DNA of 64,000 nucleotides from Uliginosibacterium sp. 31-16. Its GTDB lineage: Bacteria > Pseudomonadota > Gammaproteobacteria > Burkholderiales > Rhodocyclaceae. Numbering within the stretch: the stretch's first letter is position 1; each line of letters begins with the position of its first letter. Where the stretch lies: assembly GCF_030730865.1 (NCBI RefSeq), contig NZ_JAVALZ010000001.1:1054001-1118000 (forward strand), read 5' to 3'. Shown here one piece after another: positions 50,960 to 55,302 of this stretch. A program made the translations under genes and the position numbers. The notes beneath the pieces are model-generated. The model made no database searches and was not told where the DNA came from. It saw only the letters and a list, made by a program, of their open reading frames with translations.

Positions 50960-51312
50960 CGCGGCAACCGGCGCAGGACATGCTGCATGTCAGTTCGCAG
51001 ATCCGCACGCGTCGCCGCGGCTACTGGCGCATGTACGCGCAGGATCAGGTCATGACAAGCCAAGGTTGAACGGACATGTCGAAACATCTCGCGTGCCATG
51101 CGCTTGATGAAATTGCGCTGAACAGCCCGTTTTGCAAGCTTTTTGGCAACAACTACTCCGAGACGAGCCGTGACACCACCAGAAGGGCAGTAATGAAGGA
51201 TGAAGAAACGTCCTCTTACTGCCTTCCTGAAAGCAAAAACGGATGAATACTCATCCGTTTTGCGCAAGCGATATGCAGGTCGAAATGACCGCGAGTTGTC
51301 AGGCGAATCCAT
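50956..51312 (-). CDS. rnpA: Ribonuclease P protein component
   Basis: Basic protein of 118 residues that assists the RNA of RNase P in tRNA 5' processing. The pattern FRPAYRLRKTDEYSSVF (shown in part) followed by RLGVVVAKKLAKRAVQRNFIKRMARE is diagnostic. The usual RNRIKR stretch reads RNFIKR here. ATG 51312 was chosen because the family begins near it; a longer frame to 51561 is antisense to nothing useful and crosses rpmH. Coupled with yidD. Confidence 0.93.
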   Translation of the reverse strand: MDSPDNSRSFRPAYRLRKTDEYSSVFAFRKAVRGRFFILHYCPSGGVTARLGVVVAKKLAKRAVQRNFIKRMAREMFRHVRSTLACHDLILRVHAPVAAATRADLRTDMQHVLRRLPR

Positions 51313-51359
51313 GATTCCCGGCGCACGGAGCACCGACAAAGAACCCGCTGCAGCCGCGT

Positions 51360-51494
51360 TCAGACGGCCAGGCGATGGCGGCCTTTGGCACGGCGCGCGT
51401 TGATCACCTTGCGGCCACCTTTGGTAGCCATGCGAACCAGAAAACCGTGGGTGCGCTTGCGACGAACCACAGAAGGTTGATACGTGCGTTTCAT
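51360..51494 (-). CDS. rpmH: Ribosomal protein L34
   Basis: Very basic protein of 44 residues, start [18 protein letters not shown] and end AKGRHRLAV, the standard L34 sequence and length. It is the first gene of the leftward rpmH-rnpA-yidD-yidC operon next to dnaA. ATG 51494 is preceded by a GGAAAGATC ribosome site. Confidence 0.97.
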
Positions 51495-51591
51495 GATCTT
51501 TCCCTAAATCTTGACAGTCCAGCGAACTCGCGATTAGATATTTTATCTGCCTGTCTGTCAAGATAAACCTGCATTCCTTCCTTTTTCAGCC

Positions 51592-51600
51592 TGTGGATAA
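51592..51600 (-). promoter_or_regulatory. DnaA box upstream of dnaA
   Basis: TGTGGATAA, the exact reverse complement of the DnaA box TTATCCACA, in the rpmH-dnaA gap. It may allow DnaA to control its own promoter or form part of the origin. Confidence 0.8.
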
Positions 51601-51759
51601 ATGTGTCCTGAAAAGGTAGAATCAAGGCCGTTGTCAGATTCCTCTCAGGCAAGACAAAAAGAGGAGCGACACCAAATTCCCCATATACACCATCCGCAGG
51701 CGCTCTCGTCGAGAAGCTGGCGGCGGTGTCTTGTTAACCCCGCACCGGCAGCATTGTCG

Positions 51760-53187
51760 ATGCCGCAACAGCGATTAGCCAAAAACGTGAGTCACGCCTT
51801 CTGGACTGCCTGTCTGGCCCGACTGGAAAGTGAACTGCCTGCACAGCAGTTCAATACCTGGATCCGTGCGCTTGAAGTAGCTGAAGCGGGTAGTAACGAA
51901 GGAGTGAAACTATTTGCTCCGAACCGTTTTGTCCTGCAATGGGTGCGTGAGCGCTATCAACGCCGACTGGAACAACTTGCCGAAGAGTTCTTTGGAACGG
52001 TGACCCCACTGAGTCTTGAACTCGGGAGTCCTTCCAAAAAGCCGACCACAGCTTCTGCTGCACGTCCTGTTGTACAAACTGCACCACAACAGGTATCCAC
52101 CAGTTCTTCGGCACCAATCGAAGCTCCTGCTGTGATTACCAGCAGCAATTCCAGCTACGAAAAGACGCGGCTTAATCCGTCCTTTACCTTCGATACTCTG
52201 GTCACCGGGCGCGCCAATGATCTGGCGCGCGCGGCAGCTATCTCTGTAGCAAACAATCCTGGTTCTTCCTACAACCCCCTGTTTGTTTACGGCGGCGTCG
52301 GTCTGGGTAAAACCCACTTGATCCACGCCATCGGCAACGAGGTATTGCGTCACAATCCGAAAGCGGTGGTGCGTTACGTACACGTTGAAGACTACTTTGC
52401 CGATGTACTGCGTGCCTACCAGCAGAAGAGCTTTGATCAGTTCCAGCGTTACTACCGTTCACTGGACTTGCTGCTGATTGACGATATCCAGTTCCTTGGT
52501 GTCGGTAACAAGGAGCGCACCCGTGACGAATTCTTCCATGCTTTCAATGCGCTAACCGAAGCCAAAAAACAGATTGTCATCACCTGTGATACCTATCCAA
52601 AAGATATCCAGGGCCTTGAAGATCGTCTGATCTCCCGTTTCGACTGGGGTTTGACCGTTCAGATCGAACCACCTGAACTAGAAATGCGTATTGCCATTCT
52701 GAAGAAGAAGGCTGAATTTGACGGAGTTCCGCTCCCTGACGACGTTGCTTTTCTGATCGCCAAAAATCTGCGGTCCAACGTACGTGAACTTGAGGGAGCC
52801 CTCAAGAAGGTTGTGGCCTATGCTCGCTTCCACGGCCGCGAAATCAGCCTTGAGGTTGCCCGTGATGCGTTGCGTGACCTGCTCGCAGCGCATAACCGCC
52901 AGATTACCTTCGAGCTGATTCAGAAGACCGTAGCCGACTTCTACAAAATCAAGCTGGCTGAGCTGCTATCAAAGAAACGTACGCGCAACATTGCACGTCC
53001 AAGACAGGTTGCTATGTATCTGTCCAAGGAACTCACGCCAGCTTCGCTACCAGCGATTGGTGATGCCTTTGGCGGCCGTGACCATACAACCGTACTGCAT
53101 GCGTGCCGGACAATTGCGGAAATGCGCTTGTCCGATCAGCAACTCAACCATGACCTGCATGTGTTGACCCAGACACTCAGAGGATAA
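51760..53187 (+). CDS. dnaA: Chromosomal replication initiator DnaA
   Basis: AAA+ initiator of about 475 residues. Domain I has [26 protein letters not shown] Gln/Ser/Ala-rich linker follows. The AAA+ core has Walker [12 protein letters not shown] (about residues 175-185) and Walker [11 protein letters not shown] (about 235-244). The C-terminal DnaA signature [20 protein letters not shown] lies at about 430-448. The start is uncertain: ATG 51760 has no good ribosome site, GTG 51787 gives a shorter domain I, and ATG 51601 is too far upstream. It marks the rightward arm from the origin. Confidence 0.97.
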
Positions 53188-53203
53188 AAACGTCGAAAAA
53201 GCC

Positions 53204-53459
53204 TGTGGACAACCCTGGGGAACAGCACTTGAGCAAATGTGCGCAAGTCTGCTCAAGTGGATCATCAGGAAAACTGTCCCCAATTGCTCACATTGTTATC
53301 AGGTTGGTTTCCAACAGCTTGATCAACATGGTTAAGTTCATGTTTTTAAAAACAAATAAAGACTTATCCACAGAAACTGGCCTGATGTATTATTAGTATT
53401 AGTTATATATAGAAGTACTTGTTAACAACAAAGAAGGGAAGCCTGTTGGTGCTTTGCCA
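53204..53459 (+). repeat. Origin module copy 1
   Basis: First copy of a direct repeat with a 390-nt offset. Blocks that match copy 2 include TGTGGACAA, CAATTGCTCA, GATCAACATGGTTAAGT, TTATCCACAGAAA, CCTGATGTAT and GTTAACAAC. The position of the dnaN start codon reads AAG here, and the ribosome site is absent. Confidence 0.8.
53364..53372 (+). promoter_or_regulatory. Perfect DnaA box
   Basis: TTATCCACA, exact consensus, inside copy 1 of the duplicated origin module and just before an AT-rich stretch. Confidence 0.88.
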
Positions 53460-53593
53460 GACAAAAAATCTGTCTGCCCGTAGGAACCTCCTGACAGAGA
53501 TTGCGATGCAACAGGAACAAATTTCGGGCATGGTAGCAATTGCACTCAAGACTGCCTGAGCAAGCCGTAATGTGCGGAGACCGAAGCACCGAA

Positions 53594-53602
53594 TGTGGAT
53601 AA
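53594..53602 (-). promoter_or_regulatory. Perfect DnaA box
   Basis: TGTGGATAA, exact reverse complement of TTATCCACA, the first box of copy 2 of the duplicated module. Confidence 0.85.
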
Positions 53603-53849
53603 GTAACCGGCAATCCTGAGTGTGAAATGTGAACAAACAGTGTTTACGGCAAAGGTCAGGAAGTTCTCCCCAATTGCCCACAGCGCTGTCCCTCCCCTTA
53701 TAAACAGGGTGATCAACAGGGTTAAGTATTTGAATTAATGGATGTATTTCTGGTTATCAACAGAAAACAGCCTGATATATTAATAATAGGAGGTTTATAT
53801 AAATGCTTCTGTTAACAACTAGCCGTGATGCCTTGTTGGGCCCTCTGCA
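53594..53849 (+). repeat. Origin module copy 2 (runs into dnaN)
   Basis: Second copy of the 390-nt-offset repeat, ending inside the first codons of dnaN. Matching blocks include TGTGGATAA, CAATTGCCCA, GATCAACAGGGTTAAGT, TTATCAACAGAAA, CCTGATATAT and GTTAACAAC. Confidence 0.8.
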
Positions 53850-54909
53850 GTCTGTTTCCGGGATTGTCGAGAAACGTCACACACTGCCGATCCTGTCCAA
53901 TGTGCTGATCGAAAAGCATGGTGATGCGCTGACCCTGCTGGCAACTGATATCGAGATCCAGATCACCACACATCAGATCTCGCAAGGAAGTGGCAGTGAA
54001 GACGCATCAATCACGGTGGCTGCCCGCAAGCTGCAGGACATTCTGCGTGCTTTGCCTGATGGAGAAGTCAGCCTGGTCCTTGATGACAAGCGTCTGACTC
54101 TGAAAGCTGGCAAAAGCCGTTATGCCCTGCAAACCCTGCCTGCGGCGGATTACCCACGCATGCAACTGAATACCGGTGAGAGTCTGACTGTACGTCTGTC
54201 ACAGAAGGATTTCCGTCGTCAGCTGGCTCAGGTGGCTTATGCCATGGCAGCTCAGGACATCCGCTATTACCTCAACGGTTTGCTGATGCAGGTTCAGGGT
54301 AACGAGTTGCGCATGGTTGCAACAGACGGCCATCGTCTTGCTCTGTCATCCAATACGCTGGAACAGGAATACGCCAAGACCGAAGTCATCCTGCCCCGCA
54401 AGACCGTACTGGAACTGACCCGTCAGCTGGCAGATACAGAGGATCCGGTCGAAATCGTCATTACCGGTAATCAGGCCTGCTTCCGTTTTGGCCCGATCGA
54501 GCTGATCACCAAACTCATCGATGGCAAGTTTCCCGACTACGAACGCGTCATTCCTCAAGGCAACCCGAAGCTGGTCACGGCACACCGAACCAGTCTTCTG
54601 TCGGCGCTTCAGAGGGCGGCAATTCTCACCAATGAAAAATTCCGTGGTCTGCGTGTAGTGCTTGAATCAGGCATCCTGAAGATCATCAGCTCCAACTCCG
54701 AGCAGGAAGAAGCTCAGGAAGAACTGGAAGTGAATTACGCAGGTGACGATCTGGAACTCGGATTCAACGTCACATACCTGCTTGATGTACTCAACAACGT
54801 AGTCACGGATACCGTTGAAATCCATCTCAACGAACCCATGTCTTCGGCTTTGTTCACCTTGCCTGGCAATGAACAATTCAAGGCAGTTGTGATGCCGATG
54901 CGGATCTGA
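53803..54909 (+). CDS. dnaN: DNA polymerase III sliding clamp (beta subunit)
   Basis: Ring-forming clamp of 368 residues that holds DNA polymerase III on DNA. The start MLLLTTSRDALLGPLQSVSGIVEKRHTLPILSNVL (shown in part) and KFPDYERVIPQ near residue 243 and the terminal YVVMPMRI-like end (VVMPMRI) are typical. Three clamp domains fit the length. ATG 53803 has AGGAGG 9 nt upstream. It is immediately downstream of the origin region and followed by a lipoprotein gene instead of recF. Confidence 0.97.
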   Translation: MLLLTTSRDALLGPLQSVSGIVEKRHTLPILSNVLIEKHGDALTLLATDIEIQITTHQISQGSGSEDASITVAARKLQDILRALPDGEVSLVLDDKRLTLKAGKSRYALQTLPAADYPRMQLNTGESLTVRLSQKDFRRQLAQVAYAMAAQDIRYYLNGLLMQVQGNELRMVATDGHRLALSSNTLEQEYAKTEVILPRKTVLELTRQLADTEDPVEIVITGNQACFRFGPIELITKLIDGKFPDYERVIPQGNPKLVTAHRTSLLSALQRAAILTNEKFRGLRVVLESGILKIISSNSEQEEAQEELEVNYAGDDLELGFNVTYLLDVLNNVVTDTVEIHLNEPMSSALFTLPGNEQFKAVVMPMRI

Positions 54910-54915
54910 AGCTGG

Positions 54916-55302
54916 ATGAAACGCTTTCTGCAAATTATCCTCACTGCCAGCAGCATGTTTCTGCTGGCAGCCTGCAGCCATCAGGTGTTGCACAAAGATG
55001 CTCCGGTTTCCGTGCAAAATGTCATCGGCAAAGACGGGATTCATGGTCAGATCGTCGGAAATCTTCCGACGGGTGCCAATTTCTCCCGTTTGCAGATCGG
55101 CATGAGCCGCAGCGAGGTTGAGGCACTTGTTGGACGCCCTACCGAGCTGGATGCACAAGCAACAGGTACTGCGTGGGTTCCCTACTACTTTGGCTCTGAT
55201 ACCTGGAGTACCGAAAGTTACTACCGGGGGCGGGGGCGTCTTGTCTTCAATGCAGACAGTCGTCTCGTACTTATCGATGTCAGTGAGAATGCCTGCAAAT
55301 AG
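54916..55302 (+). CDS. Small BamE-like lipoprotein
   Basis: Predicted lipoprotein of 128 residues between dnaN and gyrB. The signal peptide ends in LLAAC (about residue 20). The mature domain has FSRLQIGMSRSEVEALVGRP and YYFGSDTWSTESYYRGRGRLVF, which align with the C-terminal domain of the lipoprotein at 16773. Fold is BamE/OmlA-like, probably outer-membrane anchored, function unknown. It starts 6 nt after dnaN, so it is co-transcribed with replication genes. It occupies the place of recF in many genomes. Confidence 0.82.
   Translation: MKRFLQIILTASSMFLLAACSHQVLHKDAPVSVQNVIGKDGIHGQIVGNLPTGANFSRLQIGMSRSEVEALVGRPTELDAQATGTAWVPYYFGSDTWSTESYYRGRGRLVFNADSRLVLIDVSENACK

Follow-up and report, generated by a model that had tools for sequence, protein, structure and literature searches.

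In the bipartite replication origins of Bacillus subtilis and Helicobacter pylori, as described in PMC8235120 and PMC5043019, the two halves are separated by the dnaA gene and only one of them contains a DNA unwinding element (DUE). Another described system is the BUS, a DnaA box with DnaA-trios; its search rule, as given in Pelliciari et al. 2021, requires a DnaA box and, no more than 16 nt beyond it, three or more 3'-NAN-5' trios; with the BUS program, over 99% of genomes were left with a single candidate for each origin (PMC8287927). In the examples given for the putative double origins of DoriC, the chromosome has a large duplication, an additional dnaA or a second site in the vicinity of parB or hemE (PMC4403523). 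Here we describe the gap between dnaA and dnaN of Uliginosibacterium sp. 31-16 (Rhodocyclaceae), contained in a stretch of 64,000 nucleotides (positions 1,054,001 to 1,118,000 of contig NZ_JAVALZ010000001.1; hereafter the window), in which a replication origin module is present twice in tandem.

The locus shares features with each of these systems. Like the bipartite origins of B. subtilis and H. pylori, it has two clusters of DnaA boxes per origin region; in contrast to these origins as portrayed in the two papers, both clusters are within the dnaA-dnaN gap and not separated by dnaA, and a predicted unwinding element is found in both homologous copies. Each copy has the box, the spacer of 14 nt and the at least three triplets of a BUS, but the window has two such candidates in direct orientation, while the program arrived at one per origin in more than 99% of genomes (PMC8287927). 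The DoriC double origins also have more than one origin-like region per chromosome, but the examples given in PMC4403523 differ from the tandem doubling of a module. The single-module oriC of single-copy relatives lies in the same place and has the same arrangement, from the reverse box behind dnaA through the forward box to an unwinding element beside dnaN; the difference is that the window has the whole module twice, with the first copy untied from dnaN. In the literature searched (top-ranked and mostly non-subscription papers) we found no description of an oriC module doubled in tandem in this group, and we class the locus as a new form of bipartite origin whose two modules are complete, homologous and arranged in tandem.

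Two direct copies in the dnaA-dnaN gap

In the dnaA-dnaN gap (53188-53802; dnaA ends at 53187 and dnaN starts at 53803), one module occurs twice in direct orientation, 390 nt apart: copy 1 at 53204-53449 and copy 2 at 53594-53839, both on the forward strand, the latter extending into dnaN. In the best gapped alignment, the copies are identical in 157 of 253 columns (62%), with 14 gap columns. A close variant of this comparison scores 108 with a maximum of 43 among 1000 dinucleotide shuffles, and chance similarity is thus ruled out. The ungapped core at offset 390 (53277-53429, 153 nt) has a net score of +47, compared with a maximum of 14 among 30 mononucleotide shuffles; the runner-up offset scored 11. 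The original prediction for this stretch, made from the letters alone, had noticed matching words 390 nt apart, and their positions and spacing are indeed as it described; the self-alignment that it proposed as a check contradicts random similarity. Its estimate that about one single-base indel is needed applies to the inner 153 nt, but the 5' part requires several. When the 64-kb window was searched with a model made from 21 module copies (the two of the window included), the two copies were the only strong matches (E 6e-33 and 2e-31; next 0.012).

An RNA element was rejected as explanation of the repeat, as Rfam had no match at the gathering threshold in 51300-55000, and so was a promoter or terminator as its cause (one promoter-like match with 1.3 expected, no terminator with 0.6 expected). 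It is extremely unlikely that there was no duplication and that two arrays of DnaA boxes and promoters became alike by convergence: DnaA boxes are a recurrent feature of every origin, but the two copies match in a single register across about 250 nt that includes non-box sequence, copy 1 has a relic of the dnaN start (see below), and of four long dnaA-dnaN gaps from other genomes none was self-similar beyond its shuffles. The tandem duplication itself is well supported.

Both copies have the same layout, with a reverse DnaA box at the start and a forward DnaA box 160 nt further. In copy 1, a box scan identified the reverse box TTGTCCACA with one mismatch (53204-53212, reverse strand) and a perfect forward box TTATCCACA (53364-53372, forward strand). 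In copy 2 the reverse box is the perfect TTATCCACA (53594-53602, reverse strand), the forward box TTATCAACA has one mismatch (53754-53762, forward strand) and there is a weaker box, TTGTTCACA, at 53628-53636 (reverse strand). The initial claim that the strong boxes are split between the copies (copy 1 with TTATCCACA, copy 2 with TGTGGATAA) holds for this genome alone: in five of the nine two-copy relatives, the forward box is a perfect TTATCCACA in copy 1 as well as in copy 2. At 14 nt past the forward box, copy 1 has seven in-register NTN triplets (53387-53407, forward strand), which by the BUS rule (PMC8287927) correspond to 3'-NAN-5' DnaA-trios on the opposite strand. Copy 2 has four such triplets after a spacer of the same length (53777-53788, forward strand; triplet scan), and here the run is stopped by the Shine-Dalgarno sequence of dnaN, AGGAGG (53788-53793).

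By its sequence features, the locus is the predicted origin of the chromosome in a Uliginosibacterium-like betaproteobacterium: it adjoins dnaA and dnaN at the GC-skew switch of the chromosome, it has a cluster of DnaA boxes (four of the ten window sites within one mismatch of TTATCCACA are in the 0.6-kb gap) and it contains thermodynamically unstable DNA. In a nearest-neighbour stability profile of 40-mers, the two least stable sites of the window start at 53385 and 53775, exactly 390 nt apart; the predicted unwinding element of copy 1 (53385-53425) is the least stable and that of copy 2 (53775-53815), which overlaps the dnaN start, the second least stable. Sampled GC skew was negative in all 12 stretches over 1 Mb leftward and positive in seven of eight stretches over 0.5 Mb rightward, the sole exception (-0.013) being the stretch closest to the locus; within the window, the cumulative skew has its minimum between 56001 and 60000, which is a few kb rightward of the copies.

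Both flanking genes are on the forward strand: dnaA (51601-53187 as the longest open reading frame, with the true start probably further in; Pfam domains Bac_DnaA, Bac_DnaA_C and DnaA_N) and the sliding clamp gene dnaN (53803-54909; Pfam DNA_pol3_beta domains). A further perfect TTATCCACA box is present directly upstream of the dnaA open reading frame (51592-51600, reverse strand), and DnaA autoregulation is a possible function. Between dnaN and gyrB there is a gene for a BamE-domain protein (PF04355, 54916-55302); in many bacteria this interval is occupied by recF.

Conservation of both copies in relatives

Relatives were compared in genome groups (g-labels), with organism names taken from named loci only. 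The genus group of the window (g1) consists of Uliginosibacterium and relatives, including U. aquaticum (L032), U. gangwonense (L036) and two Candidatus Dactylopiibacterium loci (L034, L035); L002-L007, whose contigs match those of L031-L036 in length, are the same records and were counted once, L041 is G199 and L039 is G137. Between species both copies align, with little difference between copy 1 and copy 2, but the intervening spacer (53450-53593) does not (pairwise Z -1.3 to 2.5 over 45 genome pairs). By hand tally, searching 297 genomes of the family with the module model resulted in at least one match in 260 genomes, no match in 37 (20 of them listed by name) and two matches in 61, with coordinates taken from one search for 30 of these and from another for 31. 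In 33 of these 61 the two matches are on the same strand and at most 700 nt apart: such close tandem pairs are present in 7/8 genomes of the window's genus group, in 7/7 listed of g8 (the Niveibacterium group) and 11/11 listed of g48, and elsewhere in 1/6 listed of g61, 3/9 of g56, 2/11 of g74, 1/9 of g30 and in G205 (g51). Self-alignment covered 18 of the 19 close pairs that belong to neither g1 nor g8 (G204 was left out), and 17 of them scored above all 300 shuffles; the exception is G205, whose two matches share a strand but form a pair that scores no better than shuffles do (37/300 reach the score). Conservation of both copies is well supported, and since most close relatives retain both, the doubling is probably useful.

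The remaining two-match genomes are of various kinds. In 20 of the 61, the matches are on opposite strands within 25 kb (in G129 they span the numbering start); these are L173 (G292), L174 (G098) and 18 further genomes with a second, opposite-strand origin-like module, and in G292 this module, downstream of mnmE, outscores the module beside dnaN. The other eight have matches on one strand that are 1.1-1.4 kb apart (three genomes), 7 kb apart (one) or across the numbering start (one), matches 241 kb apart (one) or matches on different contigs (two).

Could copy 1 be a non-functional, decaying relic of the duplication? It lacks the dnaN Shine-Dalgarno sequence and ATG, the copies of the window are just 62% identical, and relatives with one copy exist (G007 and g25). 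However, copy 1 aligns across genomes about like copy 2 and the neighbouring spacer does not, and its forward box and low stability are retained. Homogenisation in some lineages might mimic part of this pattern, but under an approximately unbiased (AU) test the hypothesis that every genome duplicated the module recently and on its own is rejected (p = 0.0002-0.006). We have rejected a plain decaying relic on the basis of the cross-species conservation and consider this explanation very improbable.

The predicted unwinding elements are conserved in both copies too. All ten two-copy genomes have a stability minimum in both copies, and in nine of the ten the region of copy 1 is less stable than that of copy 2, with small margins (0.1-2.2 kcal/mol). 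A strict triplet run is found in 15 of the 21 modules, the window's included, and the run of copy 1 is longer than that of copy 2 in 7/10 pairs and shorter in none. These data bear on an alternative function of the doubling, namely that only one copy opens and the other is an accessory DnaA-binding site for titration, looping or regulation of dnaN or dnaA, comparable to the non-unwinding half in H. pylori and B. subtilis. In its favour, the known bipartite origins have, according to PMC8235120 and PMC5043019, a DUE in one half only, and the window copies have each one perfect and one mismatched box at positions spaced by 160 nt. However, a pure binding site would need no unwinding element and both copies keep one, which disfavours this alternative; we regard it as rather unlikely.

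Copy 1 thus looks like a working module. The original prediction had ascribed DnaA boxes and an AT-rich block to each unit, and both are present in both units, the block being unstable; its two-unit origin is real, and its suggestion of two unwinding sites is therefore compatible with the sequence. Its other suggestion, a spare module, is a poorer fit for a copy that is conserved across species, less stable in nine of ten genomes and never shorter in its triplet run.

Origin of the doubling

Copy 2 includes the Shine-Dalgarno sequence and the first codons of dnaN. At the corresponding position (53413-53429, forward strand), copy 1 has retained TTGTTAACAAC, a relic of the dnaN 5' end that has lost Shine-Dalgarno sequence and ATG, as seen in alignments with 53803-53819 and with copy 1 of relatives; the duplicated unit therefore reached into dnaN. 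In L031, the closest relative of the window in both trees made from DnaA and DnaN, the repeat also covers the dnaA 3' end (0/200 shuffles reach the score). Both L031 copies resemble copy 1 of the window in columns 81-120 (informative sites 13:0 and 13:1) and copy 2 of the window at the 3' end (10:2 and 12:1), the latter being expected anyway for the second copy as it carries dnaN. We read this as a collapse to a single hybrid module that was then doubled again; gene conversion would be another explanation. Only L031 has traces of dnaA in the spacer, the dnaN trace in the window spacer is weak (5/200 shuffles reach the score), and the spacers of the other eight genomes have neither dnaA nor dnaN traces at the 5% level. 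Helical phasing was inspected by hand: periods vary from 285 to 643 nt and nothing is claimed. L033 (2983-4001; G003) has a gap of 1035 nt in which both modules have copy-1-like ends, with a spacer of 397 nt between them and about 130 nt of other DNA between the second module and dnaN.

In an AU test with all 21 module rows, a strict split into copy 1 and copy 2 is rejected (p 3e-6) because the pairs of L031, L033 and L034 are homogenised; once L031_c1, L034_c1, L033_c1 and L033_c2 are dropped, the split is no longer rejected (p 0.51; p 0.15 if the dnaN-start columns are removed as well). In the DnaA+DnaN tree, the Azoarcus types group with g48, g61 and g56 in a clade whose dnaA-dnaN gap is short (41-115 nt). 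A single match was obtained in each of Azoarcus indigens, Parazoarcus communis and the genome of L040. In the 14 g48, g61 and g56 genomes whose pairs were fetched (G179, G225, G259, G244, G286, G111, G298, G272, G067, G054, G226, G206, G273 and G149; loci L161-L170, L237-L239 and L245), the pair adjoins earP, the gene for the EF-P (elongation factor P) rhamnosyltransferase. The earP-side pair is 36-41 kb from dnaN in the three genomes that have both on one contig (G272, G225, G226) and is apparently a relocated origin that is also doubled; in G272, the sampled GC skew is too noisy to tell this pair apart from dnaN 36 kb off. The sister clade contains Niveibacterium and the remaining members of the window's genus group, both with two modules (in situ in Niveibacterium), as well as G007 and g25, which have one. 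The doublings of g74 and g30 are placed elsewhere in the tree, G129, the sister of G235, has a gap of 209 nt, and copy 1 of L172 carries an apparent relic of its own dnaN start: in three genomes of two other genera the module is doubled in situ, apparently independently, and doubling in situ therefore probably arose more than once.

A model for dual-module origins

We consider it fairly probable from the sequence comparisons that an ancestor duplicated the whole origin module in tandem and that both copies were kept, with copy 1 as a dedicated unwinding module that cooperates with copy 2. The duplicated unit would have comprised the DnaA boxes, the spacer of about 14 nt, the trio-like, AT-rich unwinding element and the first dnaN codons. 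In six of eight single-copy origins profiled (L018 and L016 differ), the stability minimum begins 24-28 nt before the dnaN start codon and therefore overlaps the ribosome-binding region of dnaN; in single-copy relatives, the unwinding element may thus conflict with the overlapping ribosome-binding site and start of the gene, a conflict that doubling would have lifted. We infer a division of labour: copy 1, without a gene start, would be dedicated to unwinding and helicase loading, while copy 2 would have retained DnaA binding and dnaN expression, with opening also possible. DnaA oligomers on both copies probably cooperate, and initiation may become more dependable or better timed. Recombination between the repeats may collapse the array, which may later be doubled again, and this would explain both single-copy relatives and near-identical pairs.

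Several observations weigh against this model or its parts. The DnaA-trio rules are loose and six of the 21 modules (L032_c2, L034_c1, L034_c2, L009_c2, L039_c2 and L037) miss the strict run of three. The module model was trained on the same group of genomes that it describes, and most listed genomes of g56, g61, g74 and g30 have no close tandem pair. Just one module is present in G007 and in two genomes of g25: single-copy origins, which the original prediction had proposed to look for, do exist among the relatives, and two modules are therefore not required in the wider group. The informative sites of L031 are mixed outside the two blocks (totals of 37:28 and 41:36, copy 1 versus copy 2), the module tree does not discriminate between one and two duplications for Uliginosibacterium and Niveibacterium (AU p 0.34-0.64 for the independent version) and the GC-skew switch is resolved to tens of kb only.

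More tentatively, and with lower probability, dual-module origins could be a distinct, repeatedly evolved class of Rhodocyclaceae origins in which both modules open and cooperate, for example with each loading one of the two helicases that bidirectional replication needs; the doubling would have been selected because it frees an unwinding element from the dnaN start, and in some lineages rounds of collapse and re-doubling would maintain a young array.

PMC8235120 and PMC5043019 describe bipartite bacterial origins with one unwinding site, while the module of the window is doubled and conserved, and its doubling apparently arose more than once. With species that have one or two modules within one family, in situ or beside earP, the Rhodocyclaceae offer a natural experiment for testing three things directly: the ability of bacteria to use a second unwinding site within an origin, the way in which two helicases are loaded and the possible constraint that an unwinding element overlapping the dnaN start places on origin evolution.
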